NCBI GenBank assembly: GCA_028641055.1
Contig: CM054061.1
Span: 57,688,135 to 57,752,134 of the forward strand
Source: Alopecurus myosuroides
Taxonomy: Eukaryota; Streptophyta; Magnoliopsida; Poales; Poaceae
Length of the DNA: 64,000 nt
Reading direction: 5' to 3'
Under the pieces are notes generated by a model. It was not told the origin of the DNA and did no database searches. It saw only the letters and a list, made by a program, of their open reading frames with translations. Both the position numbers and the translations under genes were made by a program. This document shows, piece by piece, positions 39,593-60,412 of the stretch; within the stretch, counting starts at the first letter, position 1; the number at the start of each line of letters is the position of its first letter.

Positions 39593-40068
39593 TGATGGGG
39601 GGATGCTAACCCGGTATGTCAAGATCCGAGGAATAACCCGGCCCAGAGACAGTGAGCAGGATACGGCTAGGGATAAAGATGTTTGTGGAGGCCCAAGCTC
39701 GTGGGCCTAGTGACCCGGATTGTGGGTGTTGTAAAGGAAAGTTAGGGTTAGCATGCCGTGTCTGGGTAGGACCCGGGTGTGCCTTGTAAAGTAAGTTAGG
39801 GGGTATGGGAGCTATATAAACCGACCCCCGGGCGTAGATTGAGACAGAGATCTGAGAACCTTAGCAATATCGAGTGGTATCGAGTATCCAGTGTAAACCC
39901 TAATCGAGTTATTGTATCGAGAATAGAGATCCGGCGACTTCGATTGCCGGCTGTCAGATCAAGTTGTATCATGTCTTCCTTTGAGCTAAACCCTCTCCCG
40001 AACGCCTGTGTGGACTTGCCCCAAGATCAGTTACCCCTGGTAACATCTGCCGTGATTATCCCACGACA
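39593..40068 (+). repeat. LTR 1 of the tandem Tat array (476 bp)
   Basis: Starts TGATGGGGGGATGC and ends ATTATCCCACGACA. Differs from the central LTR at one noticed position (39869). A TATA box lies at 39813-39820. Confidence 0.92.
39813..39820 (+). promoter_or_regulatory. TATA box of LTR 1
   Basis: TATATAAA; the first downstream in-frame ATG of the leader ORF is at 39971. The same box lies at 49970-49977 in the central LTR. Confidence 0.65.
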
Positions 40069-40447
40069 GTTGGCGCCCACCGTGGGGCCTGCGTCCAAAG
40101 GTGTTTACATCACGGGAGAAGCTCGGAAGGGCATGGAGGGTCTTGTCATTGGCGAAATCTACATCGACCACGAAGAATAAAAGTTGGTGGACGATCCCGG
40201 CTGGGGGCCAGAATCGGATCACCTCGAGTCCGGATTTATATTGACGGTCGGCCGGATCAACATCTTCGTCGACACGGTACGAACGACTAACTTAAAAGGA
40301 CAATATCATGTGCATACTACATGAACTTCTAGCAGGAACAAAGAGACATCAAAGCAAGCGGCAAATTCGGTTTCATCAGCCGCGCCGGGGTATCTTAGAT
40401 GGGCGGAACAAGAGATAACGTGGAGTAGAAGAGATCATCCGGAAAAG
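39971..40447 (+). pseudogene. Leader ORF of copy 1, broken
   Basis: The frame starts at the ATG inside the LTR (MSSFELNPLP), passes the primer site and stops at TAA (40178-40180). Copy 2 has GAA at this position. A second stop, TGA at 40321-40323, replaces GGA of copy 2. Beyond these the frame leads directly into the protease ORF at 40448. There is no gag core or zinc knuckle in this 480-bp stretch. Confidence 0.7.
40071..40088 (+). promoter_or_regulatory. Primer-binding site, copy 1
   Basis: TGGCGCCCACCGTGGGGC, two bases after the LTR. It lies inside the leader reading frame, translated as RQLAPTVG. Same at 50228-50245. Confidence 0.8.
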
Positions 40448-43400
40448 GTGGAGCGTCCAGGAGTCTTGGCGTTGGTGGTTGCTCCACAGGTCAATGGTTA
40501 CGAGCTGAAGAAGGTCCTGATGGACGGTGGAAGTAGCATCAACATCCTTTATTGGGAGACCTTCTTACGGATGAGTCTCAAAGAGTCCCAGCTGCAGAAA
40601 AGTTCAACAATCTTTCACGGGATCGTACCGGGTCACTCGGCGAGCCCCGAGGGAAGGATCACCTTGGAAGTTGCTTTTGGGGAATCGACGGATAATTATC
40701 GAGTGGAGTGGCTCACGTTCGAGGTGGTCAAGTTGCGCAGTCCTTACCACGCGCTGTTGGGGAGGCCGGCTTACGCCCAATTCATGGCTAGGCCGTGCTA
40801 CGTGTATTTGCAGCTGAAAATCCCGGGTCCTAAACGGACCATCACTATACATGGGAACCGGGATATAGCGGCCGAGTGCGACGAAGGAGATTCAGTTATG
40901 GCCGAGCAGGCATGCAGGAAGGAAGAGCTCGAATATTACCGATCTCAAGTAAACCCGGACGATAGAACAGCCTTGAAAAAGCCAAATACCGAGGATGAGA
41001 GAGCAAAATTCAAGGCAGCGCAAGACACCAAGAAGATAGATTTTGTCGAAGGGGATTCTACTAAGCAGTTTACCATAGGGTCTAACCTGGGAAAAGAGCA
41101 GGAGGGAGCGCTCGTGGAGTTCATTCGCTCGAATGCAGATGTGTTTGCCTGGACACCCAGCGACATGCCGGGTATCCCTACAGAATTGGCTGAGCACAGT
41201 TTGCATGTGGATCCCAAGTCCAGGCCCGTGAAACAAGGTTTGAGGAAAATGAATGAGGAAAGAAGGAAAGCTATAGGCGAAGAAATCGCTCGGCTACTGG
41301 CAGCCGGCTTTATCATGGAAGTATTTCACCCGGATTGGTTGGCTAACCCGGTTCTGGTGATGAAAAAGACCAACGAGTGGAGGATGTGCATTGACTTCAC
41401 TAGTCTTAACAAGCATTGCCCAAAGGATCCGTTCGCGCTCCCAAGGATAGATCAGATTATAGACGCAGTAGCTGGAAGCGATCTGTTATGCTTCCTGGAT
41501 GCATATTCCGGGTATCATCAGATTAAGCTCAAAAGGGAGGATTGGGAGAAAACATCATTCATAACCCCGTTTGGGGCCTTTTGTTATAAAACTATGACAT
41601 TTGGGTTGAAGAACGCTGGCGCAACTTACCAACGGTGTATTCAAAAGTGCTTTGAGGACCAAATCGGACGTAACGTCCATGCTTATGTGGATGACGTGGT
41701 CATCAAGACCAGGAAGGCGGAGACATTCATCGATGATCTAAAGGAGACATTCAAAAACCTGAGGAGGTACCAGATGAAGCTTAATCCAACGAAGTGCGTA
41801 TTCGGAGTTCCGGCTGGGAAATTACTCGGCTTCATAGTTTCCGAGAGAGGAATTGAGGCAAATCCAGATAAAATCAAGGCAATCCAGAGTTTGAAAAAGC
41901 CGGAGAACTTGAAGCATGTTCAAAAGCTCACGGGCTGTGTAGCAGCCTTGATCCGGTTCATATCTAGACTCGGAGAAAAAGCAATACCCTTGTATCGGCT
42001 CTTGCGAAAATCGGATAAATTCGTATGGGACGAAGAGGCAGATGAAGCGTTTGAAGCACTAAAGAAGCAATTATCTGAAGCACCAGTACTAGCGGCGCCG
42101 GGTCCTAAAGAGCCTATGTTGCTATACGTGGCAGCTGGCCCCCGAGCCGTTAGCGCAGTGGTGGTCGTGGAACGCAAAGAGGACGGGAAAGGTTACCCGG
42201 TTCAGAGGCCGGTTTATTACGTCAGTGAAGTATTATCAGAAGCAAAGCAGCGCTATCCACATTGGCAAAAGTTGGTGTTCGGGGTCTTCATGGCCAGCAG
42301 GAAGTTGAAGCCGTATTTCCAAGAACATCCTATAACGGTGGTCAGCTCAATACCAATGTCGGATATTATCAGAAACTCGGACGCGACGGGAAGAATAGCC
42401 AAGTGGGCAATAGAGATGGGAGATTATCACATAAACTACGAACCCAGGTCAGCAATCAAGTCCCAAGCTTTAATTGATTTCGTTAACGACTGGACACATA
42501 CAGGTATGGCTACCACAGTTCCAAAATCCGAGTCATGGACCATGCACTTCGATGGGTCAAAGCAATATGAGGGATCAGGAGCTGGAGTAGTGCTGACATC
42601 GCCCAAGGGAGACAAATTGAGTTACGTACTGCAAATTCACTTTGATTGCTCAAACAACGTGGCCGAGTATGAGGCCCTGTTGCATGGTTTAAAGGTAGCC
42701 AAGGAAATGAACATTAAAAGAATACGATGCTTCGGAGATTCGGATCTTGTGGTACAACAGGTATCGGGAACTTGGGACAGAAAGGATGCAACTATGGCAG
42801 CATACCGCAGGGAAGTCGACAGGGTTGCCGGGTGCTTTTCCGGGTATGAGGTGGAGCACATAGACAGAAGAAAAAACGAGGCAGCAGACGCACTCGCCAG
42901 ACTCGGCTCGCGTAGAGAGCCGGTTCCACCTAATGTGTTCCTGGACGAGTTGTGGCGACCATCAGTTAAAACCGAGTCTGAGGAAGAACTGGCAAATCAA
43001 GACCCGGATTTGGAGTACGTGGCCACAGTACACGCCATCCCCGAGTGGACAGAGCCATACCTGGCCTACCTATCACGGGGCGAGTTACCAGAACAGGAGG
43101 TATTAGCAAGACAAATCATGAGGCGAGCAAAGGGGTATTCTATCATCAATGGAGAATTATACAAGAGAAGCGCAACAGGAGTCTTCTTGCGCTGCGTAGC
43201 GCCGGAAGAAGGCCGACAGATTCTCAAGGAAATACACGAAGGCGACTGTGGGCATCATGCGTCTACAAGGTCTCTGGTGGCTAAAGCTTATCGACACGGA
43301 TTTTTCTGGCTTACGGCTCTATCGGATGCCGAACGTTTGGTAGCAAGATGTGACGGATGTCAAAGGTACGCTCGCCAAACACACGTACCGGCTATGGAAT

Positions 43401-44326
43401 TACGGACCATCCCATTAACTTGGCCGTTCGCCGTCTGGGGTATGGATATGGTTGGTCCCTTCCATATGTCACCGTGCAAGAAGACACATCTTTTGGTGGC
43501 CATTGACAAGTTTACCAAGTGGGTTGAGGTTATGCCAGTTACTAATTGCGAAGCGGCTACAGCAGTCAAGTTCCTGAAAAGGATTATCTACCGGTTTGGG
43601 TATCCCCACAGCATAATCACCGACAACGGAACTAACATGTCTCTTGGCGAGATGGAGAAATTCTGTGGCAACAATGGCATCCGGCTTGATGTTGCATCAG
43701 TGGCTCACCCGCAGGCCAATGGGCAAGTGGAGAGAGCAAACCAAGAATTGCTTCGTGGGTTAAAACCACGGTTGCGAGTCCCCTGTGTTAGGGCTGCTGG
43801 TGCATGGGTCGAAGAACTTCCGTCTGTGGTTTGGGGCATCAACACTACACCTAACAGATCCACTCAGATGACACCCTTCTTCATGGTCTATGGCGCGGAA
43901 GCAGTGTTACCAAGTGATATTATTCACGATTCGCCCAGAGTATCAGCTTACGTCGAAGTAGAGAACGAAAAAATCCGGCAGGACGCCGTAGATATGTTAG
44001 AAGAACAAAGAGAACAAGCCCTGGAAAGATCAGCCATATATCAGCAAGATCTACGGAGGTATCATAGCCGGCGTGTGAAGACCCGGGTATTCCAGGAAGG
44101 AGATTTGGTTCTGCGTCTGGTACAGTCAAACGAAGGAAAACACAAATTATCACCACCATGGGAAGGACCATTTATCATAAGCCGGAACCTACATAACGGA
44201 TCATATTATTTGATAGATGCAAGGGAAGAGTCGGCTACAGTCAATGACACCGCGCACACCACTTCATCTATGCAAGAAAGAGATAGACCATGGAACGTGG
44301 CTCAGCTGCGTCCGTATTATACTTAG
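40448..44326 (+). CDS. pol: Pol polyprotein (PR-RT-RH-aRH-INT), Tat lineage, intact, no gag
   Basis: 1292 residues. Protease: DGG at 26-28 (LMDGGSSINILY) and LLGRPAYAQF. Reverse transcriptase about 220-480: FAWTPSDMPG, WRMCIDFTSLNKHCPKD, FLDAYSGYHQI, active site YVDD at 413-416. A first, degenerate RNase H lies about 540-690, then an archaeal-type RNase H with D702 in HFDGS, NNVAEYEAL and EAADALARLGS. The dual RNase H is a Tat-lineage trait. Integrase: HHCC end (GHHAST, CDGCQRYA), catalytic D1000, D1059 and E1095, so the 35-residue spacing is kept. All catalytic residues are present and the frame is unbroken. The natural start would be upstream; 40448 is merely the first ATG after the leader stops. 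Confidence 0.93.
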   Translation: MERPGVLALVVAPQVNGYELKKVLMDGGSSINILYWETFLRMSLKESQLQKSSTIFHGIVPGHSASPEGRITLEVAFGESTDNYRVEWLTFEVVKLRSPYHALLGRPAYAQFMARPCYVYLQLKIPGPKRTITIHGNRDIAAECDEGDSVMAEQACRKEELEYYRSQVNPDDRTALKKPNTEDERAKFKAAQDTKKIDFVEGDSTKQFTIGSNLGKEQEGALVEFIRSNADVFAWTPSDMPGIPTELAEHSLHVDPKSRPVKQGLRKMNEERRKAIGEEIARLLAAGFIMEVFHPDWLANPVLVMKKTNEWRMCIDFTSLNKHCPKDPFALPRIDQIIDAVAGSDLLCFLDAYSGYHQIKLKREDWEKTSFITPFGAFCYKTMTFGLKNAGATYQRCIQKCFEDQIGRNVHAYVDDVVIKTRKAETFIDDLKETFKNLRRYQMKLNPTKCVFGVPAGKLLGFIVSERGIEANPDKIKAIQSLKKPENLKHVQKLTGCVAALIRFISRLGEKAIPLYRLLRKSDKFVWDEEADEAFEALKKQLSEAPVLAAPGPKEPMLLYVAAGPRAVSAVVVVERKEDGKGYPVQRPVYYVSEVLSEAKQRYPHWQKLVFGVFMASRKLKPYFQEHPITVVSSIPMSDIIRNSDATGRIAKWAIEMGDYHINYEPRSAIKSQALIDFVNDWTHTGMATTVPKSESWTMHFDGSKQYEGSGAGVVLTSPKGDKLSYVLQIHFDCSNNVAEYEALLHGLKVAKEMNIKRIRCFGDSDLVVQQVSGTWDRKDATMAAYRREVDRVAGCFSGYEVEHIDRRKNEAADALARLGSRREPVPPNVFLDELWRPSVKTESEEELANQDPDLEYVATVHAIPEWTEPYLAYLSRGELPEQEVLARQIMRRAKGYSIINGELYKRSATGVFLRCVAPEEGRQILKEIHEGDCGHHASTRSLVAKAYRHGFFWLTALSDAERLVARCDGCQRYARQTHVPAMELRTIPLTWPFAVWGMDMVGPFHMSPCKKTHLLVAIDKFTKWVEVMPVTNCEAATAVKFLKRIIYRFGYPHSIITDNGTNMSLGEMEKFCGNNGIRLDVASVAHPQANGQVERANQELLRGLKPRLRVPCVRAAGAWVEELPSVVWGINTTPNRSTQMTPFFMVYGAEAVLPSDIIHDSPRVSAYVEVENEKIRQDAVDMLEEQREQALERSAIYQQDLRRYHSRRVKTRVFQEGDLVLRLVQSNEGKHKLSPPWEGPFIISRNLHNGSYYLIDAREESATVNDTAHTTSSMQERDRPWNVAQLRPYYT

Positions 44327-45430
44327 TAAAGACTATATTGGCAAGTGGAATTGCACGATGTAATAGGCAGCAGGTTTTCTGACGTACTCTTTTCCTATCC
44401 AGGGCACCTTTGGGGACTGGACGGGTTTTTAATGAGGCGGCTTGCTGACCTACATTTTTCATATCAAGTAAAGAGATGGTTATCAAGAAAAGAGATGGTT
44501 GTTATCAGTTTTTCATATCAAGTAAAGAGATGGTTATCAAGAAAAGAGATGGTTGTTATCAGGTTATGTATTCTCAGTACGATGCGTATATCTAGGTCTT
44601 GGGGGCTGATCGCTTAAATAGCACAGTTACAAACTCAAAGACCCGGCCATGATGCCTATGAGTTATAAGGGCCGATTACTCGCAAACGAGTACGGCTACA
44701 ATCTTATAACCGGACAAAGAAGTCCAAATTTCTTGGCTACTCTTACTTAAGCTCGATGTGACTCGCATTAAAGTGGCATGATTTGTTCGCTTACGATGGC
44801 AGTTAGTCATGAAACCCGACGGGGATTGGCTGGCTACGTCTTCGTATTGATGTAACAACATGGTATCCACGCGAAAGCCGGCTTACAGTACAAGACAGTC
44901 AAAAGGGTCATCTAAACCACAAGTTATGCAGAGTACAAGGCTGAATAGCCGGAAACTCAATGCCTATTAAGCATAACTTCAAATCCGATGTGAAACAGCT
45001 CATGGATCTTTGTGAAAATAGCAATGAGCATTTTGTTGCCTTTTCAAGATCAAGTGTCCTAGGCTCGGCAATCCGGGCCCGGTAGCTTGGAATCTTGAAA
45101 AGAACTGGCTTACTTGTATAGTTGCAAAAATCCAAGTATCCGAGTCTTGGGGACTTGGGGACTTCGAAGCAAAATCCGCTTGTCAATACCCATGAGACCC
45201 GGAAATTGAGTTTTCACAAAAGGAGCAATAAATAAAACCAGATATCGAGAACAGATGAGCTTAACTTACAAAGGTCGGAACAGGCATCGAGTATATCAAG
45301 GCCTTAGTGTGCATTACAAAATACTGGTGAAAAAATATCAAAGGTGCACAGGCGCACCGCCTAAAGAATGACTGTTTCAAAAAGTATGTCGACCGACTGA
45401 CGCTTAAGAAGAGGCATCGGAAACCATATA
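44327..45430 (+). other. Non-coding spacer between pol and the antisense gene, copy 1
   Basis: Pol and the antisense gene converge on this 1.1 kb. It holds a 54-bp tandem duplication (44455-44508, 44509-44562) and no supported ORF. The equivalent in copy 2 is 54486-55590. Confidence 0.6.
44455..44562. repeat. 54-bp tandem duplication, two units
   Basis: Two identical 54-bp units beginning tttttcatatcaag. They are also present in copy 2 (54614-54721), so they predate the tandem duplication of the element. Confidence 0.9.
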
Positions 45431-48400
45431 TCACTCGGCGCCCATCTTGGCCTTACCCTTGCCATCATTGGTGGTAGCAGCAACACCCGGATCGGCGGCG
45501 CCAGCCCCCGCAGGGGGCGGAACGACTGATGTTGAGGCAGCAGGAGCAGAGCCGGCTTCAGCTTGTTTCTTGGCAGCCTCCGCCCTTATCGCAGCAGCTT
45601 CCTCCTTCCACCGAGCCATCATGTCATATGGTTCGGGAAGATCTGACTTAATTGCCACACCAGCAGCATCATAAGCGGGGACAAGAGTATTGACGTCCAG
45701 TTCATCAGCGATCACGCTAGCCGGGTAACGGACCTCTTTCTGCACAGCCTGAAAATCCTCCCGCGAGAATTTTGAACCATCAAGCTTGAATTCGGGGAAG
45801 CCGCCCATGAGCTTTGCCAGATCGAGCTTGGGGAAGTAAGCCTTGGCGAGTGATAGCCCCCGGGTCATTCCAACCCGGCAGGACGAGCGCTTCCAGTGCC
45901 AAATCCACTCAGGAATCGTGGAAAAGGCGTCCAGCATCCTCTTCAGGTCAACATGTCCTCTACCTGGCCACCGTAACTCTTCCAAGATCCATCTGGTTCC
46001 GGCACACAGCTGCCGGATAACATTCTTCATGGTCTTCAGCTTGGCAATATCATCCTCATCCGGCATGGTTTCGTCCGGGCCTGGAGTAAAATGAATATAT
46101 AAGCTAAGCATTTTTTGCTGTTGGTCAAAAGGATAAACCCGGAGAAGGAAGCATACCAAGCAAAGAACGATAGGTATCAGAAATTTCGACAGAAAGGCTT
46201 GTCAGGTCGTCTTCGGCTCGGTGAGCCCTTCTTCGGTACTTCTTCATTAATTGCCTATTCCTTCTGGCTTCAGTCTCGGCCGCTTCGCGTAAAGATATCT
46301 CTTTTTCAATGAGCTTGGCGGCGTCTGCAAGTTTCTCCTCATATTGAGTCACGAAAGACTGCGTGGATGTTAAAAAGTGTTAGTCGGATAGAAGAGCACG
46401 GTTATCAGTCATTGGTATAATAAAAGTACCGAGCAAGTCATGAATGAACTCCCTCGGAACTTGGGGACTGGACAAAGGTACAAGCAACATTAATCAAACT
46501 TACCTCGTGTTTGGTTATCAAAGACCCCAAGATATTTTCCTCGTTAGCCCTTAAGGCGCGCAGGGTCTCTAGCATCTGGGCAAAAGTTAACTCCTCGGAG
46601 CGAGTCCCGGAAGAGCCGGCAGCTTGATCATCTGGTAGGGGGGTTCCCCTTGCATTTGGAGTGGAGACCCGGACAGTCTGAGTGTCCGGGTTGGGAGGGC
46701 CCATCTTTGTATCTAGAATTTCTATCTCTTCGTCTACTGGTTCCGATAAGGAAGGAGATCCGACGGTTTGGGAAAGTGGATTGTTCAGAGGGCCTTGTTC
46801 CCGGTTAGTGGCCGCATCACCACCAGTTGCGGCGTCTGCGTCGTCAGTCGGCTTCTTCACCTGGAGGTTATCCGTTTCTGTGTTTTCCGGGTCACTGACG
46901 GTGACCTGAGCACTGAAAGAAAGATGAAAAAAGGCAGTTATTAATGATGATGGTGTCTCGGATGAAAGTTCGCTAGAGGCAAAAAGAAATAGTAAGGCAA
47001 AAACTTACCCGGCATTTACGGTGTAATCCGATGGGAGCTCGCCACTTGAAGTAGATGAGGTATTCGCAGGAACCACTAATGGAACCCGGAATTGCCCGGC
47101 ACGTGGGTGGTTAGGAGAAGGGTGGCGCTGAGGAGAGTTGGAAGAACGAGATGGAGGAGCACTGCCACGAGGGACTAAAGGGGCGGAGATGCCCGGGTTA
47201 AGGGGATCTTCACCCGGGGAGCTCCGAGTTACCCTGCGCTTGGCGGGGAAAGATTCCTTCAAGCACGGCGAATTTGACAATTGATGGTTAAGTCTTCGCA
47301 TGGCGTCAAAGGAGTAAGATTCAGAAGATAGTGAGGAAAAAGGAACCTTGGATACTGTCCCCCTGCTTTTCCTCTTGGCCCCGGCTGTTGCCTCTGGGTC
47401 AGACTCGGTTCTCTCCGGGTCATCCTCGTTGTTTCCACCTTCGTCCTCCAGCCCTGCGAGTCAGATGTGTATTCATTGGGAAAAAGACAGACGAAAGGAA
47501 AGTAATACAAGCAAAAGTATGCAGATCCTGGGTGAGTACCTTCGCTGTCGTCAGTCGTCTCGTCCTCCTCTTCCGGGTCTCTGGAGGGGGGGAGTGGGTC
47601 CACTCTCCAGAAGGGGTCATCAGCCTAAAGTAAAAAGATAAAGTTAAGGTTTAGAAGCAGTATCGAGTTGAAATGTGGAGACAAGTTATGAGTGCCGGGT
47701 ATTACCGTTGGAGCTGGATTTTCCCGAGTAAACGGAGGTAACCCGGAGATGCCCTTTATCACCTCCAGCTTCTCTGCCAAGAGGCTCTTGATGGTCTTGA
47801 TAGTGTCACCGGTCGCAAAGCTTTTGGAGGAATAGCGAAGTGCATCTGTAGTGTGACCCGAATACTCGCACATCAATTTGGTGCGGATGGAATTAGGTTG
47901 GATTCGGAAGTCGACCCATGTCTTTATCAAATTGAGCCCTAGGAGGCCTTGGGCTGAGAGAATGGCTATTTTGGCTAGTGCAGGAAGGATTGCTTCCCTG
48001 TCCGAGTCTGGTGCGAAGGCACTGAAAGACTCGGAGGGTTTGAGGGGGGTCTCTGAGTAACCCGGCAGCTTCTTTTCGCTGTCGGAGGAGGTATCGCGGC
48101 AATAAAAAAAGGATAACTGCCAATGTTTGGCACAGGATTGCAGGTTGAGGGTTGGCATTAAAGAATTCCTACGGCGTTGGATGGATACCCCGCCGCAAGT
48201 GAGAAGCGCCCCGTCGCCGCTTTCGCGGCACGGTTTGCATTGGAATAATTCAGTGAAAAGAGTCAGGTTTGGTGGCATGCACAAATACGACTCAGATAGA
48301 ACTATGAAGTGGGTGATGTTCAACATGGAGTTAGGCCCTATGTCGAACACCCGGAGTCCGTAGTGATCTAAGACCTCCCTAAAGAAGGGGTGACCCGGAG

Positions 48401-48635
48401 GGCGAAATCCTCGGGTCACGTGCTCTACAAAGCAGATTACCTCGTCTTCTGCGGGAGTGGGATGAGTTTCGTTACCCGGCACCCTCCAGTGGATGTCTTT
48501 CTGAGAGGGGAGGGTGCCTAACTCGGTTAGTTCGTCCAACTTGGCCTTAGTGGTTGTGGAGCGCCCCCAATTGGCGGATATGGCTTGGGTGGTCCTTGCT
48601 TGAGCCGGATGTTTTCCTTGTCGCTTGGGAGCCAT
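45431..48635 (-). CDS. Antisense six-exon gene, gypsy-type transposon protein, copy 1
   Basis: Coding exons on the minus strand: 48635-47706, 47624-47540, 47453-47009, 46912-46504, 46358-46157, 46080-45431. All introns (76 to 145 bp) have GT-AG borders and the phases join into one frame of about 906 residues, MAPKRQGKH to KAKMGAE. Residues about 63-190 (HPFFREVLDHYGL, SESYLCMPPNLTLF) match the plant 'putative gypsy type transposon' domain (Transposase_28 type). Exons 3-4 are P/S/T-rich and acidic; exon 5 is a charged coiled-coil-like segment (YEEKLADAAKLIEKE); exon 6 is a globular segment followed by an Ala/Pro-rich tail. The ATG is the first after the 5'UTR splice and lies in ccccATGg context. 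Antisense ORFs are known in Tat relatives such as Grande; function unknown. Splicing is predicted by reading. Confidence 0.75.
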
Positions 48636-48644
48636 GGGGTCAGC

Positions 48645-49340
48645 CTGCGAAACACAAAAAGAAAAAGATGTATGAAATAAGACCCGGGAATGTTGGAATA
48701 TCCGAGTATAAGGTACCAAGAAGGTACGAAGTTGAGAGCTGTCCGGGTATTGAGCACACTTATGGAAATTGTTGCTCACTTACATAGGAAAAGGTATTTG
48801 GGGACGACGGATGGTTGCCCATATTTATATCGCAAATGAAATAGCTGGAAAAGGAGGGTTTTTCCGGGTGTTAATGCAGTAAGCGGAAAACGGCGGAGGA
48901 ACGGATCTAGATGGAAAAGTTCGCGGATAATTTTTAAGCGAAATTGGTGATCAATAATGATTGGAGGATCATTTGTGACTATCAGGCAGGTGATTAGAGT
49001 ATTTGGCAAGCACCGAATCAATCTAATTCGAGGCAATCGGACAAATAGCTTGCGGGTTGACCTAGATCTGATCTTGGATGAACTGAAAATTGCGAAGCTG
49101 AATTAATTGGCTGCGAAGAGCTTACCGAGGAGATTGGGGCCAAGTGTGATGGCGACGAGCGGCGTGGCACGAATGGGAGGAATAGAGGTCTAAAGGTGGC
49201 GCTTGGCGGCGGCACGAAACGATTCGAGGACGAGCGCGGCCGCTGTTGATCCTGCGTTGGTAGCAGGCGCGAGTTCCTCACGGTGGTGCTGTGAAGGTGT
49301 TAGGAGCAAGGAAGAAAAGGGGGAGTTGTGGCGTGGTGAT
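48645..49340 (-). other. 5'UTR exon and intron of the antisense gene, copy 1
   Basis: Exon about 49340-49126 ends in a good donor (TCG then GTAAGC). The intron 49125-48645 ends TTTCGCAG nine bases before the ATG. The exon contains no ATG, as expected of a leader. The exon start is estimated from the TATA box. Confidence 0.55.
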
Positions 49341-49365
49341 GGGCTTAGGGTTGCCCTCTAAGCGC

Positions 49366-49373
49366 TATTTATA
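49366..49373 (-). promoter_or_regulatory. TATA box of the antisense gene
   Basis: TATAAATA on the minus strand (CTTATAAATAGC), about 240 bases upstream of the 5'UTR splice donor. It is separate from the LTR promoter and lies some 380 bases inside the element from its 3' LTR. Confidence 0.6.
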
Positions 49374-49749
49374 AGGCAAGGGTGAACTTATCTCAACGGC
49401 CAGAAACCGGAAATCGCGGGGTAATGGTTATCTACAAAGATTTCGCAAGATATGTGTAGAACATTGGGCAAAGCATTGGGTTAGAAGAAGGAAGGGGCTC
49501 GCCCGTGATGACAGGATTGGTTGTCAAGTGTGAGATCTTGGCATTTCTTATTGCGGTCTGGGCCTGGGGATTTGAACTTAAGTGTTTGGAAGAAAGGTCC
49601 GGGTTATTACATGGCCTCCATGGAGTAAGGCCTAGCAGAATATCAAAGCATCTTAACTCGGTTTCCATGTGCCCGTGTGATTGATATCTTTTCAGGAATA
49701 GCAAGCGCTTCAAGGAGATCCGTGAAGCCCAGGCTATTCTGGGGACTAC
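49374..49749 (+). other. 3' end of interior 1
   Basis: Non-coding sequence between the antisense promoter and the central LTR. The last bases (tctggggactac) are the candidate polypurine tract. Confidence 0.5.
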
Positions 49750-50225
49750 TGATGGGGGGATGCTAACCCGGTATGTCAAGATCCGAGGAATAACCCGGCC
49801 CAGAGACAGTGAGCAGGATACGGCTAGGGATAAAGATGTTTGTGGAGGCCCAAGCTCGTGGGCCTAGTGACCCGGATTGTGGGTGTTGTAAAGGAAAGTT
49901 AGGGTTAGCATGCCGTGTCTGGGTAGGACCCGGGTGTGCCTTGTAAAGTAAGTTAGGGGGTATGGGAGCTATATAAACCGACCCCCGGGCGTAGATTGAG
50001 ACAGAGATTTGAGAACCTTAGCAATATCGAGTGGTATCGAGTATCCAGTGTAAACCCTAATCGAGTTATTGTATCGAGAATAGAGATCCGGCGACTTCGA
50101 TTGCCGGCTGTCAGATCAAGTTGTATCATGTCTTCCTTTGAGCTAAACCCTCTCCCGAACGCCTGTGTGGACTTGCCCCAAGATCAGTTACCCCTGGTAA
50201 CATCTGCCGTGATTATCCCACGACA
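49750..50225 (+). repeat. Central (shared) LTR of the tandem array
   Basis: 476 bp, TGATGGGGGG to CACGACA. It serves as 3' LTR of copy 1 and 5' LTR of copy 2. No target duplication or foreign DNA lies at either border, which distinguishes the array from two independent insertions. Confidence 0.92.
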
Positions 50226-51552
50226 GTTGGCGCCCACCGTGGGGCCTGCGTCCAAAGGTGTTTACATCACGGGAGAAGCTCGGAAGGGCATGGAGGGTCT
50301 TGTCATTGGCGAAATCTACATCGACCACGAAGAAGAAAAGTTGGTGGACGATCCCGGCTGGGGGCCAGAATCGGATCACCTCGAGTCCGGATTTATATTG
50401 ACGGTCGGCCGGATCAACATCTTCGTCGACACGGTACGAACGACTAACTTAAAAGGACAATATCATGTGCATACTACAGGAACTTCTAGCAGGAACAAAG
50501 AGACATCAAAGCAAGCGGCAAATTCGGTTTCATCAGCCGCGCCGGGGTATCTTAGATGGGCGGAACAAGAGATAACGTGGAGTAGAAGAGATCATCCGGA
50601 AAAGGTGGAGCGTCCAGGAGTCTTGGCGTTGGTGGTTGCTCCACAGGTCAATGGTTACGAGCTGAAGAAGGTCCTGATGGACGGTGGAAGTAGCATCAAC
50701 ATCCTTTATTGGGAGACCTTCTTACGGATGAGTCTCAAAGAGTCCCAGCTGCAGAAAAGTTCAACAATCTTTCACGGGATCGTACCGGGTCACTCGGCGA
50801 GCCCCGAGGGAAGGATCACCTTGGAAGTTGCTTTTGGGGAATCGACGGATAATTATCGAGTGGAGTGGCTCACGTTCGAGGTGGTCAAGTTGCGCAGTCC
50901 TTACCACGCGCTGTTGGGGAGGCCGGCTTACGCCCAATTCATGGCTAGGCCGTGCTACGTGTATTTGCAGCTGAAAATCCCGGGTCCTAAACGGACCATC
51001 ACTATACATGGGAACCGGGATATAGCGGCCGAGTGCGACGAAGGAGATTCAGTTATGGCCGAGCAGGCATGCAGGAAGGAAGAGCTCGAATATTACCGAT
51101 CTCAAGTAAACCCGGACGATAGAACAGCCTTGAAAAAGCCAAATACCGAGGATGAGAGAGCAAAATTCAAGGCAGCGCAAGACACCAAGAAGATAGATTT
51201 TGTCGAAGGGGATTCTACTAAGCAGTTTACCATAGGGTCTAACCTGGGAAAAGAGCAGGAGGGAGCGCTCGTGGAGTTCATTCGCTCGAATGCAGATGTG
51301 TTTGCCTGGACACCCAGCGACATGCCGGGTATCCCTACAGAATTGGCTGAGCACAGTTTGCATGTGGATCCCAAGTCCAGGCCCGTGAAGCAAGGTTTGA
51401 GGAAAATGAATGAGGAAAGAAGGAAAGCTATAGGCGAAGAAATCGCTCGGCTACTGGCAGCCGGCTTTATCATGGAAGTATTTCACCCGGATTGGTTGGC
51501 TAACCCGGTTCCTGGTGATGAAAAAGACCAACGAGTGGAGGATGTGCATTGA
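50128..51552 (+). pseudogene. Leader-protease-RT start of copy 2, no gag domain
   Basis: Opens at the ATG in the LTR (MSSFELNPLP), reads through the primer site (RQLAPTVG), a short region (TVGRINIF, LRWAEQEITWSRRDHP) and directly into protease (LMDGGSS) and the start of reverse transcriptase. About 160 residues separate start and protease, and neither gag core nor CCHC knuckle is present. Compared with copy 1, a single extra c at about 51511 shifts the frame and closes the ORF at 51552. The frame also runs open upstream to 49996, but that ATG is only 19 bases after the TATA box and probably untranscribed. Confidence 0.8.
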
Positions 51553-54485
51553 CTTCACTAGTCTTAACAAGCATTGCCCAAAGGATCCGTTCGCGCTCCC
51601 AAGGATAGATCAGATTATAGACGCAGTAGCTGGAAGCGATCTGTTATGCTTCCTGGATGCATATTCCGGGTATCATCAGATTAAGCTCAAAAGGGAGGAT
51701 TGGGAGAAAACATCATTCATAACCCCGTTTGGGGCCTTTTGTTATAAAACTATGACATTTGGGTTGAAGAACGCTGGCGCAACTTACCAACGGTGTATTC
51801 AAAAGTGCTTTGAGGACCAAATCGGACGTAACGTCCATGCTTATGTGGATGACGTGGTCATCAAGACCAGGAAGGCGGAGACATTCATCGATGATCTAAA
51901 GGAGACATTCAAAAACCTGAGGAGGTACCAGATGAAGCTTAATCCAACGAAGTGCGTATTCGGAGTTCCGGCTGGGAAATTACTCGGCTTCATAGTTTCC
52001 GAGAGAGGAATTGAGGCAAATCCAGATAAAATCAAGGCAATCCAGAGTTTGAAAAAGCCGGAGAACTTGAAGCATGTTCAAAAAGCTCACGGGCTGTGTA
52101 GCAGCCTTGATCCGGTTCATATCTAGACTCGGAGAAAAAGCAATACCCTTGTATCGGCTCTTGCGAAAATCGGATAAATTCGTATGGGACGAAGAGGCAG
52201 ATGAAGCGTTTGAAGCACTAAAGAAGCAATTATCTGAAGCACCAGTACTAGCGGCGCCGGGTCCTAAAGAGCCTATGTTGCTATACGTGGCAGCTGGCCC
52301 CCGAGCCGTTAGCGCAGTGGTGGTCGTGGAACGCAAAGAGGACGGGAAAGGTTACCCGGTTCAGAGGCCGGTTTATTACGTCAGTGAAGTATTATCAGAA
52401 GCAAAGCAGCGCTATCCACATTGGCAAAAGTTGGTGTTCGGGGTCTTCATGGCCAGCAGGAAGTTGAAGCCGTATTTCCAAGAACATCCTATAACGGTGG
52501 TCAGCTCAATACCAATGTCGGATATTATCAGAAACTCGGACGCGACGGGAAGAATAGCCAAGTGGGCAATAGAGATGGGAGATTATCACATAAACTACGA
52601 ACCCAGGTCAGCAATCAAGTCCCAAGCTTTAATTGATTTCGTTAACGACTGGACACATACAGGTATGGCTACCACAGTTCCAAAATCCGAGTCATGGACC
52701 ATGCACTTCGATGGGTCAAAGCAATATGAGGGATCAGGAGCTGGAGTAGTGCTGACATCGCCCAAGGGAGACAAATTGAGTTACGTACTGCAAATTCACT
52801 TTGATTGCTCAAACAACGTGGCCGAGTATGAGGCCCTGTTGCATGGTTTAAAGGTAGCCAAGGAAATGAGCATTAAAAGAATACGATGCTTCGGAGATTC
52901 GGATCTTGTGGTACAACAGGTATCGGGAACTTGGGACAGAAAGGATGCAACTATGGCAGCATACCGCAGGGAAGTCGACAGGGTTGCCGGGTGCTTTTCC
53001 GGGTATGAGGTGGAGCACATAGACAGAAGAAAAAACGAGGCAGCAGACGCACTCGCCAGACTCGGCTCGCGTAGAGAGCCGGTTCCACCTAATGTGTTCC
53101 TGGACGAGTTGTGGCGACCATCAGTTAAAACCGAGTCTGAGGAAGAACTGGCAAATCAAGACCCGGATTTGGAGTACGTGGCCACAGTACACGCCATCCC
53201 CGAGTGGACAGAGCCATACCTGGCCTACCTATCACGGGGCGAGTTACCAGAACAGGAGGTATTAGCAAGACAAATCATGAGGCGAGCAAAGGGGTATTCT
53301 ATCATCAATGGAGAATTATACAAGAGAAGCGCAACAGGAGTCTTCTTGCGCTGCGTAGCGCCGGAAGAAGGCCGACAGATTCTCAAGGAAATACACGAAG
53401 GCGACTGTGGGCATCATGCGTCTACAAGGTCTCTGGTGGCTAAAGCTTATCGACACGGATTTTTCTGGCTTACGGCTCTATCGGATGCCGAACGTTTGGT
53501 AGCAAGATGTGACGGATGTCAAAGGTACGCTCGCCAAACACACGTACCGGCTATGGAATTACAGACCATCCCATTAACTTGGCCGTTCGCCGTCTGGGGT
53601 ATGGATATGGTTGGTCCCTTCCATATGTCACCGTGCAAGAAGACACATCTTTTGGTGGCCATTGACAAGTTTACCAAGTGGGTTGAGGTTATGCCAGTTA
53701 CTAATTGCGAAGCGGCTACAGCAGTCAAGTTCCTGAAAAGGATTATCTACCGGTTTGGGTATCCCCACAGCATAATCACCGACAACGGAACTAACATGTC
53801 TCTTGGCGAGATGGAGAAATTCTGTGGCAACAATGGCATCCGGCTTGATGTTGCATCAGTGGCTCACCCGCAGGCCAATGGGCAAGTGGAGAGAGCAAAC
53901 CAAGAATTGCTTCGTGGGTTAAAACCACGGTTGCGAGTCCCCTGTGTTAGGGCTGCTGGTGCATGGGTCGAAGAACTTCCGTCTGTGGTTTGGGGCATCA
54001 ACACTACACCTAACAGATCCACTCAGATGACACCCTTCTTCATGGTCTATGGCGCGGAAGCAGTGTTACCAAGTGATATTATTCACGATTCGCCCAGAGT
54101 ATCAGCTTACGTCGAAGTAGAGAACGAAAAAATCCGGCAGGACGCCGTAGATATGTTAGAAGAACAAAGAGAACAAGCCCTGGAAAGATCAGCCATATAT
54201 CAGCAAGATCTACGGAGGTATCATAGCCGGCGTGTGAAGACCCGGGTATTCCAGGAAGGAGATTTGGTTCTGCGTCTGGTACAGTCAAACGAAGGAAAAC
54301 ACAAATTATCACCACCATGGGAAGGACCATTTATCATAAGCCGGAACCTACATAACGGATCATATTATTTGATAGATGCAAGGGAAGAGTCGGCTACAGT
54401 CAATGACACCGCGCACACCACTTCATCTATGCAAGAAAGAGATAGACCATGGAACGTGGCTCAGCTGCGTCCGTATTATACTTAG
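51515..54485 (+). pseudogene. pol: Pol of copy 2 (RT, RNase H, integrase), with a second frameshift
   Basis: Frame after the first indel runs 51515-52126 with reverse transcriptase and YVDD. One extra a in a run at about 52081 shifts it again, and the rest (52074-54485) matches copy 1 residues about 490-1292: both RNase H domains and integrase. Differences from copy 1 include one N to S and one R to Q. The two 1-base insertions are the only defects. Confidence 0.88.
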
Positions 54486-54613
54486 TAAAGACTATATTGG
54501 CAAGTGGAATTGCACGATGTAATAGGCAGCAGGTTTTCTGACGTACTCTTTTCCTATCCAGGGCACCTTTGGGGACTGGACGGGTTTTTAATGAGGCGGC
54601 TTGCTGACCTACA

Positions 54614-54721
54614 TTTTTCATATCAAGTAAAGAGATGGTTATCAAGAAAAGAGATGGTTGTTATCAGTTTTTCATATCAAGTAAAGAGATGGTTATCAAG
54701 AAAAGAGATGGTTGTTATCAG
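54614..54721. repeat. 54-bp tandem duplication, copy 2
   Basis: Identical to 44455-44562. Confidence 0.9.
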
Positions 54722-55590: not shown

Positions 55591-58500
55591 TCACTCGGCG
55601 CCCATCTTGGCCTTACCCTTGCCATCATTGGTGGTAGCAGCAACACCCGGATCGGCGGCGCCAGCCCCCGCAGGGGGCGGAACGACTGATGTTGAGGCAG
55701 CAGGAGCAGAGCCGGCTTCAGCTTGTTTCTTGGCAGCCTCCGCCCTTATCGCAGCAGCTTCCTCCTTCCACCGAGCCATCATGTCATATGGTTCGGGAAG
55801 ATCTGACTTAATTGCCACACCAGCAGAATCATAAGCGGGGACAAGAGTATTGACGTCCAGTTCATCAGCGATCACGCTAGCCGGGTAACGGACCTCTTTC
55901 TGCACAGCCTGAAAATCCTCCCGCGAGAATTTTGAACCATCAAGCTTGAATTCGGGGAAGCCGCCCATGAGCTTTGCCAGATCGAGCTTGGGGAAGTAAG
56001 CCTTGGCGAGTGATAGCCCCCGGGTCATTCCAACCCGGCAGGACGAGCGCTTCCAGTGCCAAATCCACTCAGGAATCGTGGAAAAGGCGTCCAGCATCCT
56101 CTTCAGGTCAACATGTCCTCTACCTGGCCACCGTAACTCTTCCAAGATCCATCTGGTTCCGGCACACAGCTGCCGGATAACATTCTTCATGGTCTTCAGC
56201 TTGGCAATATCATCCTCATCCGGCATGGTTTCGTCCGGGCCTGGAGTAAAATGAATATATAAGCTAAGCATTTTTTGCTGTTGGTCAAAAGGATAAACCC
56301 GGAGAAGGAAGCATACCAAGCAAAGAACGATAGGTATCAGAAATTTCGACAGAAAGGCTTGTCAGGTCGTCTTCGGCTCGGTGAGCCCTTCTTCGGTACT
56401 TCTTCATTAATTGCCTATTCCTTCTGGCTTCAGTCTTGGCCGCTTCGCGTAAAGATATCTCTTTTTCAATGAGCTTGGCGGCGTTTGCAAGTTTCTCCTC
56501 ATATTGAGTCACGAAAGACTGCGTGGATGTTAAAAAGTGTTAGTCGGATAGAAGAGCACGGTTATCAGTCATTGGTATAATAAAAGTACCGAGCAAGTCA
56601 TGAATGAACTCCCTCGGAACTTGGGGACTGGACAAAGGTACAAGCAACATTAATCAAACTTACCTCGTGTTTGGTTATCAAAGACCCCAAGATATTTTCC
56701 TCGTTAGCCCTTAAGGCGCGCAGGGTCTCTAGCATCTGGGCAAAAGTTAACTCCTCGGAGCGAGTCCCGGAAGAGCCGGCAGCTTGATCATCTGGTAGGG
56801 GGGTTCCCCTTGCATTTGGAGTGGAGACCCGGACAGTTTGAGTGTCCGGGTTGGGAGGGCCCATCTTTGTATCTAGAATTTCTATCTCTTCGTCTACTGG
56901 TTCCGATAAGGAAGGAGATCCGACGGTTTGGGAAAGTGGATTGTTCAGAGGGCCTTGTTCCTGGTTAGTGGCCGCATCACCACCAGTTGCGGCGTCTGCG
57001 GCGTCAGTCGGCTTCTTCACCTGGAGGTTATCCGTTTCTGTGTTTTCCGGGTCACTGACGGTGACCTGAGCACTGAAAGAAAGATGAAAAAAGGCAGTTA
57101 TTAATGATGATGGTGTCTCGGATGAAAGTTCGCTAGAGGCAAAAAGAAATAGTAAGGCAAAAACTTACCCGGCATTTACGGTGTAATCCGATGGGAGCTC
57201 GCCACTTGAAGTAGATGAGGTATTCGCAGGAACCACTAATGGAACCCGGAATTGCCCGGCACGTGGGTGGTTAGGAGAAGGGTGGCGCTGAGGAGAGTTG
57301 GAAGAACGAGATGGAGGAGCACTGCCACGAGGGACTAAAGGGGCGGAGATGCCCGGGTTAAGGGGATCTTCACCCGGGGAGCTCCGAGTTACCCTGCGCT
57401 TGGCGGGGAAAGATTCCTTCAAGCACGGCGAATTTGACAATTGATGGTTAAGTCTTCGCATGGCGTCAAAGGAGTAAGATTCAGAATATAGTGAGGAAAA
57501 AGGAACCTTGGATACTGTCCCCCTGCTTTTCCTCTTGGCCCCGGCTGTTGCCTCTGGGTCAGACTCGGTTCTCTCCGGGTCATCCTCGTTGTTTCCACCT
57601 TCGTCCTCCAGCCCTGCGAGTCAGATGTGTATTCATTGGGAAAAAGACAAACGAAAGGAAAGTAATACAAGCAAAAGTATGCAGATCCTGGGTGAATACC
57701 TTCGCTGTCGTCAGTCGTCTCGTCCTCCTCTTCCGGGTCTCTGGAGGGGGGGAGTGGGTCCACTCTCCAGAAGGGGTCATCAGCCTAAAGTAAAAAGATA
57801 AAGTTAAGGTTTAGAAGCAGTATCGAGTTGAAATGTGGAGACAAGTTATGAGTGCCGGGTATTACCGTTGGAGCTGGATTTTCCCGAGTAAACGGAGGTA
57901 ACCCGGAGATGCCCTTTATCACCTCCAGCTTCTCTGCCAAGAGGCTCTTGATGGTCTTGATAGTGTCACCGGTCGCAAAGCTTTTGGAGGAATAGCGAAG
58001 TGCATCTGTAGTGTGACCCGAATACTCGCACATCAATTTGGTGCGGATGGAATTAGGTTGGATTCGGAAGTCGACCCATGTCTTTATCAAATTGAGCCCT
58101 AGGAGGCCTTGGGCTGAGAGAATGGCTATTTTGGCTAGTGCAGGAAGGATTGCTTCCCTGTCCGAGTCTGGTGCGAAGGCACTGAAAGACTCGGAGGGTT
58201 TGAGGGGGGTCTCTGAGTAACCCGGCAGCTTCTTTTCGCTGTCGGAGGAGGTATCGCGGCAATAAAAAAAGGATAACTGCCAATGTTTGGCACAGGATTG
58301 CAGGTTGAGGGTTGGCATTAAAGAATTCCTACGGCGTTGGATGGATACTCCGCCGCAAGTGAGAAGCGCCCCGTCGCCGCTTTCGCGGCACGGTTTGCAT
58401 TGGAATAAGTCAGTGAAAAGAGTCAGGTTTGGTGGCATGCACAAATACGACTCAGATAGAACTATGAAGTGGGTGATGTTCAACATGGAGTTAGGCCCTA

Positions 58501-58795
58501 TGTCGAACACCCGGAGTCCGTAGTGATCTAAGACCTCCCTAAAGAAGGGGTGACCCGGAGGGCGAAATCCTCGGGTCACGTGCTCTACAAAGCAGATTAC
58601 CTCGTCTTCTGCGGGAGTGGGATGAGTTTCGTTACCCGGCACCCTCTAGTGGATGTCTTTCTGAGAGGGGAGGGTGCCTAACTCGGTTAGTTCGTCCAAC
58701 TTGGCCTTAGTGGTTGTGGAGCGCCCCCAATTGGCGGATATGGCTTGGGTGGTCCTTGCTTGAGCCGGATGTTTTCCTTGTCGCTTGGGAGCCAT
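55591..58795 (-). pseudogene. Antisense six-exon gene, copy 2, nonsense mutation and promoter lost
   Basis: Exons correspond to copy 1 shifted by 10160: 58795-57866, 57784-57700, 57613-57169, 57072-56664, 56518-56317, 56240-55591. GT-AG borders are kept. Codon 50 is TAG (58646-58648) where copy 1 has tryptophan TGG. The element at 58907 lies inside the 5'UTR intron, separating these exons from their TATA box and first exon. Other differences are mostly silent or conservative (A to S, E to K). Confidence 0.75.
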
Positions 58796-59914
58796 GGGGT
58801 CAGCCTGCGAAACACAAAAAGAAAAAGATGTATGAAATAAGACCCGGGAATGTTGGAATATCCGAGTATAGGGTACCAAGAAGGTACGAAGTTGAGAGCT
58901 GTCCGGTGAACGGACAACGACGTCGCCTAGAGGGGGGGGGGGTGAATAGGCGATTAAAACTTTTCCGGTTAATGCTTGCTAAATGCGGAAATAAACTAGG
59001 TGTTTAAATTAACAAGCATACAACCTAAATATTCTATGGTCAACTAGATGAACAAACAACTTATGCTAAGCAAGACAAGTAACAAGGTGATAGCAAGATA
59101 TATAACTTCAAGCTCGAAGGCTATCACAATGTAAATTGCAAAAGTAAAAAGCTCGGGTATAGAAATAACCGAGGCACACGGAGACGATGATGTATTCCCG
59201 AGTTCCTCCCACAAAGGGGAGTACGTCTCGTTGGAGGGGTGTGAGCTCGCCACGAAGGCCTACTCAACGCCACAAAGGCCTCACCCTATTCTCCGATGAA
59301 CCCCGCCACAAAGGCCTAGTTCACCTTCCACTATATGGCAACCTTCAAACCCGAGGCACGCATCCACAACTCAATTGGAGGCTCTCGGTGTCACCACAAT
59401 CTTGGGGCACGCATCCACAACTCAATTGGAGGCTCCCAAGAACACCACAAGTCGTCTAGGGTCCAAGACCCAAGAGTAACAAGCTCACAAACTTTCAACT
59501 TCCACGAATCCTCGTGGAGAGAGCAAACCGATGCAACCGATGCAAATGGCAAGAGCACAAGTGCTCAAATCCTTCACTCTCAAATTCCAACAAAGCAACA
59601 AATGCTTATGGGGGAATAAGAGAGGAAGAACAATGGAGGAGAAACACCAAGAACTCCAAGATCAAGATCTACTAAGTTTCCCTCACTAAGAAGGAAGATG
59701 GATTGGTTGAAATGTAGATCGAGATCTCCTCTACCTTCTCCCTCAAAGATATGCAAGAATCATAGGAGGGATTGGGAGAGGGGCAAGTTTTCCAAGGTCA
59801 ACAATGGTGGGAGAGAAGGGGAAAAACGTGCTTGGAAGACTTGGGGACCAATGGGGAAGAAAGCCCCCTTAAATAGGTCCCCACAAAAACTAGCCGTTTG
59901 TGCAGGAATCTGGG

Positions 59915-60412
59915 ACCGGAATATCCGGTCCAAGTTTGGACCGGAATATCCGATCCGAAGATCTGCTCGAAACCTGTTGACTTTAACCGGAATATCCGGT
60001 CCCCTTGGAAAAATCCGGTACCAATAATCCGGTCCATGTCAGTGAGCAAATTGGTCTGAAAACTGCCCAAACCGGAATATCCGGTATGCCCCGAATAATC
60101 CGGTTCAAATAATCCGGTTCATTCCAGAAGGTTCAAGCTTCCAGTCCTTAGCCATTTTTCGCAGCAACCGGAATATCCGGTCCAGGATGAATAATCCGGA
60201 CCAAATAATCCGGTTGACTCCAGTAGCTCGAACCTTCCAGTCCTTAGCCATTTTTCGCAACAAACTCCACAACCGGAATATCCGGTTTGAGATGAATAAT
60301 CCGGCTCCAAATAATCCGGCTCATCTCTGTCCCGAATATGGACCAAAACTACCCTAACCGGAATATCCGGTTGCCCGGAATAATCCGGCTAGAATAATCC
60401 GGTTGAGTCCGG
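59915..60412. repeat. Array of ACCGGAATATCCGGT inverted-repeat words
   Basis: Seven copies of CCGGA-ATA-TCCG(G) and about nine of ATAATCCGG lie in 500 bp, upstream (minus sense) of the TATA-like box. Confidence 0.85.

Follow-up and report, generated by a model that had tools for sequence, protein, structure and literature searches.

A predicted seven-exon antisense gene in a gag-less Retand-type retrotransposon of Alopecurus myosuroides

Antisense open reading frames (ORFs) with a Transposase_28 (TRP28) domain are an already known class, as the original prediction had pointed out. According to the available sections of PMC11963269 they are typical of the Retand lineage and are present in 97% of the recently active Retand clusters. 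In these sections the survey, which covers 63 Retand clusters, lists ORFs as given by ORF Finder and not spliced genes, and its main text nowhere uses the word 'intron'. The maize Grande element contains gene23, which is located antisense after pol, has its own promoter, and encodes a nuclear protein (available text of PMC7264820, citing Gomez-Orte 2013). In HTLV, the antisense promoter is found within the 3' LTR (PMC7264820, same text). As a rule, Retand/Tat elements encode an additional RNase H (aRH) between RNase H and integrase, which is also true for Ogre (PMC6317226). Because of their passage through RNA, retroelements are expected to lose introns.

The window analysed here comprises 64,000 nucleotides of Alopecurus myosuroides (GCA_028641055.1, CM054061.1:57,688,135-57,752,134, forward strand), to which all coordinates refer. 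It contains a gypsy element with two LTRs of 476 bp on the plus strand, LTR 1 with TG...CA ends (39593..40068) and LTR 2 (49750..50225), which differs from LTR 1 at one position and is common to a second internal region in tandem. No target site duplication can be read, as the tandem pair runs out of the window. LTR 1 is followed by TGGCGCCCACCGTGGGGCC (40071..40089, plus strand), which we take to be the primer binding site. The sense pol ORF (40448..44326, plus strand) encodes reverse transcriptase, RNase H, an RVT_3-type RNase H, and integrase, with the Pfam order RVT_1 (306-464), RT_RNaseH (553-660), RVT_3 (701-818), H2C2 (920-975), and rve (993-1088), and presumably a protease-like motif. 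The RVT_3 domain can be read as the aRH. The region between pol and the 3' LTR is 5423 bp long and carries PF04195 on the minus strand, and such a long region with an antisense TRP28 ORF characterises Retand elements. Inspection in three frames of the DNA from LTR 1 to pol showed no gag. The dimensions of 476 / 9681 / 5423 bp are close to those of the clusters 'Alopecurus myosuroides 7a-7c' (477-481 / 9671-9685 / 5427-5433), for which no GAG is listed (PMC11963269, available sections).

Convergent with pol, a gene is predicted on the minus strand of this element. Its six coding exons extend from 48635 to 45431, are separated by five GT-AG introns, and join into 906 codons from ATG to TGA with no internal stop and exon-start phases of 0, 0, 1, 2, 0, and 1, which agrees to the base with the model originally proposed. 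The ATG-free leader, the TATA box, and the upstream intron ending nine bases before the ATG were likewise found as described there. The TATA box TATAAATAG (49365..49373, all gene features on the minus strand) is a sequence match; the motif has two matches in the 64-kb window against 0.58 expected, with at least two in 14 of 100 shuffles, and shows two private variants among the compared copies. The leader exon of 217 nt (49126..49342) would start about 30 nt past the TATA box, at an assumed transcription start near 49342. It is followed by the 5'UTR intron 1 (48645..49125, 481 nt, GTAAGC...CGCAG), in which the IME motif TTNGATYTG is absent, and by the final 9 nt of the 5'UTR (48636..48644). 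Coding exon 1 (47706..48635) comprises residues 1-310 with the TRP28 domain at residues 67-134 (PF04195, E 3.1e-21, 75.8 bits, above the curated Pfam cut-off of 26.2). Intron 2 (47625..47705, 81 nt) leads to exon 2 (47540..47624), which in the spliced frame is acidic, and intron 3 (47454..47539, 86 nt) to exon 3 (47009..47453). The remaining exons are exon 4 (46504..46912), the charged and coiled-coil-like exon 5 (46157..46358), and exon 6 with the stop (45431..46080), which contains a conserved C-terminal region with no Pfam family. They are delimited by intron 4 (46913..47008, 96 nt), intron 5 (46359..46503, 145 nt), and intron 6 (46081..46156, 76 nt). All six introns start with GT and end with AG at these coordinates, and each has a T fraction of 0.33-0.44 against 0.21 in the coding sequence; the acceptors of introns 3 and 5 are weak, as judged by a crude splice matrix. 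None of four AATAAA-like variants was found between the stop of the gene and pol. The only basic clusters in the predicted protein are RRR, KRK, KRR, and KKYRRR, AlphaFold models of exons 1 and 6 have mean pLDDT values of 38 and 44, too poor for use as fold queries, and a PDB sequence search gave matches at chance level only. A second copy of the gene (55591..58906, minus strand) belongs to the tandem element; it is 5'-truncated, lacks leader and TATA box, and has one premature stop in exon 1.

The longest spliced ORF was determined by dynamic programming with at most five introns of 60-200 nt each and crude splice weights; the gene model passes this search by construction because the thresholds correspond to its weakest coding-intron site. 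On the minus strand this ORF reaches 2721 nt, as long as the gene model, and on the plus strand 339 nt; none of 1000 dinucleotide shuffles reached 2721 nt (maximum 1104, mean 374). Among the best 24 of the 58 tile-strands of the window, 13 exceed 1300 nt, and all of these fall on strands and stretches that hold gag/pol ORFs or one of the two copies of the antisense gene. The antisense gene is surpassed by one pol tile (2853 nt), and the first tile below the 13 has 981 nt.

The family-wide comparison of exons and introns that had been proposed with the original prediction was made with 39 copies against the window copy, one of them from the window itself and the other 38 fetched. Among 9669 first-look candidates, 40 places were scored, and two of these 40 are the window's own copies. 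Selection of the copies relied on their resemblance to exon 1 and intron 2, and counts in exon 1 are therefore biased low. Coding variants common to at least three copies comprise 93 nonsynonymous (N) and 170 synonymous (S) changes against a neutral 2.31:1 (omega-like ratio 0.24, binomial p 2e-30), in 75 sharing patterns, the copies being related by descent and variants inside one pattern not independent. Private coding variants, with one copy (L037) set apart, amount to 142 N plus 4 stops and 101 S in 38 copies. Their ratio of 0.63 is also below neutral expectation (p 0.0004), as is that of private pol variants (0.74), so that either the expectation is imperfectly calibrated or inheritance accounts for part of the private variants; the shared ratio of the antisense gene is about 0.38 of its private one. 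L037 has five private coding changes (4 N, 1 S; 1.73), and 57 of its 62 private differences are noncoding; its leader is probably badly aligned or foreign, and the shared counts include this copy. In each of the six exons the ratio is lowest in the predicted frame when compared with the other five, with exon 2 tied on one variant. Frameshift-size indels common to at least three copies are absent from the coding sequence but occur four times in introns and leader (Fisher p 0.009), and each exon frameshift is confined to one or two copies. Splice dinucleotides are changed once, privately, against 6.6 changes expected. A broken frame or splice site is found in 12 of the 39 copies. The two window copies alone show exons without constraint (7 N, 2 S, 1 stop), as expected for recent insertions. 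Across the family, the comparison of copies shows that the predicted gene is open when spliced and that purifying selection maintains both its splice borders and its coding frame. In the 20 of the 38 fetched copies that differ most from the window copy, the shared and private ratios are 0.06 and 0.74 for pol and 0.24 and 0.67 for the antisense gene, which indicates about fourfold looser selection on the latter.

These substitutions bear on the proposal that the locus is a source of antisense RNA, acting through dsRNA/siRNA or by interfering with the genomic RNA, with the protein being incidental. Such a role has been raised for antisense ORFs by Vicient and Casacuberta 2020 (PMC7264820, available text), and transcription convergent with pol would produce an RNA that overlaps the sense genomic one. 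However, it is the amino acids and splice borders that are under selection and not the sequence as such, third codon positions accounting for 170 of the 263 coding variants common to at least three copies. We consider an RNA role in place of a protein unlikely, while one alongside protein function may exist.

It is also conceivable that only the TRP28 ORF of exon 1 is the gene and that what follows it consists of relics or of ORFs in their own right. The unspliced frame, with intron 2 retained, indeed gives 336 codons including TRP28, and an ORF-based survey would list such a single-exon protein (PMC11963269, available sections). The constraint seen in exons 3-6 speaks strongly against this, as each of them has in the predicted frame an omega-like ratio between 0.15 and 0.42 for variants common to at least two copies (exon 3, 0.23; exon 4, 0.42; exon 5, 0.15; exon 6, 0.25; or 0.19, 0.36, 0.13, and 0.24 for those common to at least three). 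A database protein of Alopecurus aequalis has exons 1-2 and 5-6 joined at matching places and is 40% identical to exons 5-6 over 281 positions. Seven relatives, P0001-P0007, were found with exon 1, of which P0004 is more distant (43% identical). In P0001, P0003, P0004, and P0005 the residue past the intron-2 donor is V (GTN), i.e. they read into the intron; P0002 and P0006 do not extend as far as this donor, and P0007 runs on into exon 2. In the latter, exon 4 and the core of TRP28 are missing, but it matches exon 5 and is 46% identical to exon 6 over 158 positions, starting at the exon border. A search with the whole 906-residue protein scored 7990 candidates, none of which passed, and an exon 6 sequence search gave no relatives. 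Neither viral contigs, searched with pol and with exon 1, nor the species genomes and plasmids searched contained any.

The exon plan is also kept in a second family of the same genome (125 places scored of 69241 candidates, three copies fetched), which is 63% identical in exon 1 and 48% in exon 6, with an exon-1 dN/dS of about 0.09 at saturated dS. Introns 2, 4, 5, and 6 are located at equal place and phase. For introns 2 and 6 this holds in all three copies, with both borders of intron 6 kept; the intron 4 donor is kept in three and its acceptor AG in two, and the intron 5 acceptor in three and its donor border unchanged in two. The copy without the acceptor AG of intron 4 is L067, in which the border of exon 4 is also altered by one base and exon 6 is interrupted by a stop. 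Intron 3 has no counterpart in the three copies, where its place is open and coding. TATAAAT is present in all three, and the CCAAT motifs found upstream of the antisense gene are absent near it. The leader donors GGTAAACTC, GGTAAGCCT, and GGTAAGCTC are similar, and a TCTAG acceptor lies 10 nt before the ATG in each copy. The second family thus has the same plan of TATA box, leader exon, and intron, with the leader intron being predicted. The in-phase introns 4-6 kept between families also argue against exon 1 as the whole gene, which we regard as no better than the RNA source and, if anything, slightly less probable.

Intron-rich genes with a promoter are normally of host-DNA origin. However, the recent insertion of a host gene or another element in reverse orientation into a single copy is extremely improbable given exon 1 in 40 scored places of the genome and in the second family, and given that TRP28 is reported for 97% of the Retand clusters with recent activity (PMC11963269, available sections). 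Recent capture is refuted; an ancient capture is a possible origin of the gene.

We therefore consider it likely that the element is a gag-less Retand-type gypsy element whose accessory antisense TRP28 gene is truly protein-coding and has seven exons including the leader. For the gene and its splicing, judged from sequence comparison, this is highly likely, and the original claim of a genuine second gene is supported by the copies and by the same plan in the second family. Pol II would start at an internal antisense promoter that lies between the 3' LTR and the gene, and splicing and translation of its product would yield an approximately 100-kDa protein with TRP28 domain, acidic stretch, coiled coil, and conserved C-terminal region. 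Replication would proceed only through sense genomic RNA, the antisense mRNA not being a template for new copies. The cDNA would keep the introns because sense RNA carries their reverse complements, which the spliceosome cannot remove, and because reverse transcription reads sense RNA only, the antisense position would preserve them over unlimited copying rounds. An LTR retrotransposon would thus retain a predicted seven-exon gene by having it on the strand from which no copies are made. Tentatively, and by analogy with HBZ, the protein could regulate the element as a nuclear accessory factor, a role that has been proposed for Grande GENE23. It seems an even question whether Retand elements generally carry one ancient intron-rich antisense gene with promoter and leader intron instead of scattered ORFs. 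If so, the antisense ORFs and coiled-coil-like 'domains' of surveys would be exons of one gene, and its retention by gag-less elements would imply a task for which the element has no ready substitute elsewhere. With this model, an 'antisense ORF of unknown role' becomes a defined full-length predicted protein open to expression and assay, and spliced gene models rather than ORFs suggest themselves for the annotation of Retand elements.

The antisense gene of HTLV has few exons. HBZ of deltaretroviruses and its relatives are spliced antisense genes too (PMC8622228, available text), but the HTLV promoter is in the 3' LTR, whereas the gene described here has a putative internal promoter, seven predicted exons, and a protein unrelated to HBZ. 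No intron-split antisense gene is described in the available texts of PMC11963269, PMC7264820, PMC6317226, PMC12786077, and PMC3091746. The class with antisense TRP28 ORF and own promoter is known, the own promoter from Grande, and intron 3 and the CCAAT motifs are not shared with the second family. The intron-split plan is without mention in the available text of the two closest papers. With gene23 the gene shares the antisense position past pol (PMC7264820, available text); the TATA box and leader donor kept in both families may correspond to an own promoter, and the protein may likewise be nuclear. It shares with the Retand antisense TRP28 ORFs the position between pol and 3' LTR, the orientation, and the domain; in the available sections of PMC11963269 these are separate ORFs, whereas here they are exons of one predicted spliced gene with putative promoter and leader intron. 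An intron within a Tat-clade retrotransposon is already known, but the introns predicted here are antisense and invisible to genomic RNA.

The antisense gene was predicted to span 45431-49373 on the minus strand in six coding exons preceded by a spliced leader, and all of the predicted borders proved to be exact. The joined exons comprise 2721 nt of coding sequence, which runs from ATG to TGA through 906 codons without an internal stop, and the six introns (481, 81, 86, 96, 145, and 76 nt) all start with GT and end with AG. As predicted, the leader does not contain an ATG, intron 1 ends nine bases before the start codon, and a TATA-type motif, TATAAATAG, matches the minus strand at 49373-49365. 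Upstream of this TATA box, CCAAT motifs start at 49467, 49479, and 49520. In a spliced-ORF search with crude splice-site weights and thresholds taken from the weakest coding-intron site of the gene model, so that the model qualifies by construction, the longest ORF on the minus strand has the same length as the model, whereas the plus strand does not yield more than 339 nt. With identical thresholds none of 1000 dinucleotide shuffles reached this length, the best having 1104 nt.

Comparing exons with introns across the family, as the original prediction had proposed, revealed constrained exons and maintained splice borders. The window was placed at C5:57688135-57752134, and 40 places of the family were scored in the 3.57 Gb genome out of 9669 candidates. 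The window gene was compared with the antisense stretches of 38 copies outside the window and with the second copy inside it (39 in total). We read private variants as mostly post-insertion changes, and variants in at least three copies as passed on through replication. Based on 284:89 noncoding transitions to transversions, the neutral ratio of nonsynonymous plus stop to synonymous variants is 2.31. Coding variants in at least three copies comprise 93 nonsynonymous and 170 synonymous changes (including one TGA to TAA change at the terminal stop), which is 0.24 of the expectation (p 2e-30; p-values are optimistic here because variants of the same branch are not independent). These variants show 75 sharing patterns and the signal thus does not come from one branch only. 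Variants in exactly two copies (14 to 10) are at 0.61 of the expectation, and private variants at 0.63 in 38 copies (142 and 4 stops to 101 synonymous) and at 1.73 in the family copy L037 (4 to 1), which was counted separately. For exons 1 to 6 the ratios of variants in at least two copies are 0.11, 0, 0.23, 0.42, 0.15, and 0.25, of which the exon 1 value is skewed downwards, given that exon 1 and intron 2 served to find the copies, while exons 3 to 6 are free of this bias. Indels of frameshift size present in at least three copies are absent from the 2721 coding nucleotides, whereas introns and leader together have four (Fisher p 0.009); those in only one or two copies each number seven in coding and twelve in noncoding sequence. 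The 24 splice dinucleotide positions contain one private variant, while the variant rate of the introns would predict 6.6 (P 0.011), and frame and borders are intact in 27 of the 39 copies.

The convergent pol served as control in the 20 copies most unlike the window copy. Its shared variants (52 nonsynonymous, 365 synonymous) are at 0.06 and its private variants at 0.74, compared to 0.24 and 0.67 for the antisense gene in the same copies. The private ratios, similar in the two genes and slightly under 1, provide a calibration, against which the antisense gene is constrained (shared to private about 0.36), although its constraint is some four times looser than that of pol. When all six frames were read, the predicted minus frame had the lowest ratio in every exon (tied in exon 2, with a single variant), and the next-lowest were mostly plus frames with a common third codon position, as expected.

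Database relatives found with exon 1 extend the comparison. One of the seven, P0001 (source lgn), is 65% identical to exon 1 and allowed another family of this genome to be found, of which 125 places were scored from 69241 candidates and three fetched copies (L067-L069) compared. Exon 1 is 63% identical to L069 (dN/dS 0.09, dS saturated); identity to L067 is 48% in exon 6 and 27% along the stretch from exon 4 through intron 5. The identity blocks stop at the splice sites of the window gene. Introns 2, 4, 5, and 6 have the same place, phase, and GT/AG borders in the three copies, except in L067, where intron 4 lacks its acceptor AG and the end of exon 4 shows a gap of one base. A counterpart of intron 3 (47454-47539) was not found in these copies, where the homologous sequence reads as an open coding frame; it could be a recent intron gain or an intronisation of coding sequence within a retrotransposon. 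Upstream, each of the three copies carries TATAAAT and a leader rich in C; the donor is GGTAAG or GGTAAA, and the acceptor TCTAG lies 10 nt ahead of the ATG. CCAAT motifs near the TATA box are not kept in them. Four of the seven relatives run from NPAPx or NRAPx into a valine (GTN) at the intron-2 donor, valine accounting for 5% of the residues, two end before the donor, and one (P0007) continues into exon 2. The latter is an Alopecurus aequalis 'unnamed protein product' that presumably represents a gene model. Its exon 1-2 and 5-6 junctions coincide with those of the window gene, but it is devoid of the TRP28 core and exon 4.

The host element is bounded by two LTRs of 476 bp (TG...CA, starting at 39593 and 49750) that differ in one base. 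The pol ORF (40448-44326, plus strand) begins 379 nt past the first LTR and presumably has a protease-like motif close to its start, so that a gag gene of typical size could not fit in between; this stretch was inspected in three frames. Although the window copy lacks gag, pol and the antisense gene are both under purifying selection family-wide. The domain search gave the order RT, RNase H, RVT_3-type RNase H, and integrase, and Ogre and Retand elements are described as arranged RT-RNase H-extra RNase H-integrase (PMC6317226). The window contains a tandem LTR - internal - LTR - internal (39593-58906), whose two units are 99.75% identical across 9157 columns with 23 differences listed. The second internal region breaks off beside unrelated sequence at 58906, within intron 1 of the antisense gene, possibly by a nested insertion or a deletion. 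Its antisense gene (55591-58906, minus strand) misses the promoter end and has one premature stop. Seven nonsynonymous, two synonymous, and one stop difference to the window gene reveal no constraint on the exons, as expected because copies mutate after insertion.

Elsewhere in the window, a Retand-like element on the minus strand (1-4501) is cut at the window edge. Its stretch 901-2 matches the N-terminal 302 residues of the pol described above with 50% identity, and a long ORF (4102-1439, minus) ends in a gag domain. It is a gag-bearing relative near the gag-less element and possibly of the type supplying gag. Two direct repeats of 4.3 kb (7406-11711 and 17706-22012, 98.5% identical), probably LTRs, flank a gypsy gag-pol on the minus strand with a pol broken into several ORFs. 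A pair of 88-nt direct repeats at 60093-60276 shares 82% identity and lies within a tract where CCGGAATATCCGG-like and AATAATCCGG motifs are abundant.

The protein contains the TRP28 domain (residues 67-134), an acidic stretch (residues 311-380, 31% D+E), a middle part rich in P/S/T/G, a charged, helix-like exon 5, basic clusters, and a conserved C-terminal region. Its own promoter is predicted to direct Pol II transcription, and splicing would yield a protein of about 100 kDa. In the sense genomic RNA the introns are present as reverse complements that cannot be spliced, and therefore survive reverse transcription, a conclusion based on the anatomy of the element and established retrotransposon biology. 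By analogy to the nuclear GENE23 of Grande (PMC7264820), the DNA binding predicted for TRP28 (PMC11963269), and the basic clusters, we tentatively suggest that the protein might be a nuclear regulator.

The assignment to a known antisense Transposase_28 class holds: using ORF Finder, Vicient 2025 reported that every recently active Retand cluster has antisense ORFs and that TRP28 occurs in 97% of these clusters (PMC11963269). The clusters 'Alopecurus myosuroides 7a-7c' therein have nearly the same LTR, internal, and POL-3'LTR lengths as the window element and also no GAG, so that the family is probably already catalogued. Vicient and Casacuberta 2020 described gene23 with its own promoter and urged attention to antisense and spliced transcripts (PMC7264820). 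The word 'intron' is absent from the main texts of both papers, and the literature on Grande gene23 and extra ORFs may mention introns. The antisense gene is real and its class is known, and its intron-split architecture is apparently new.
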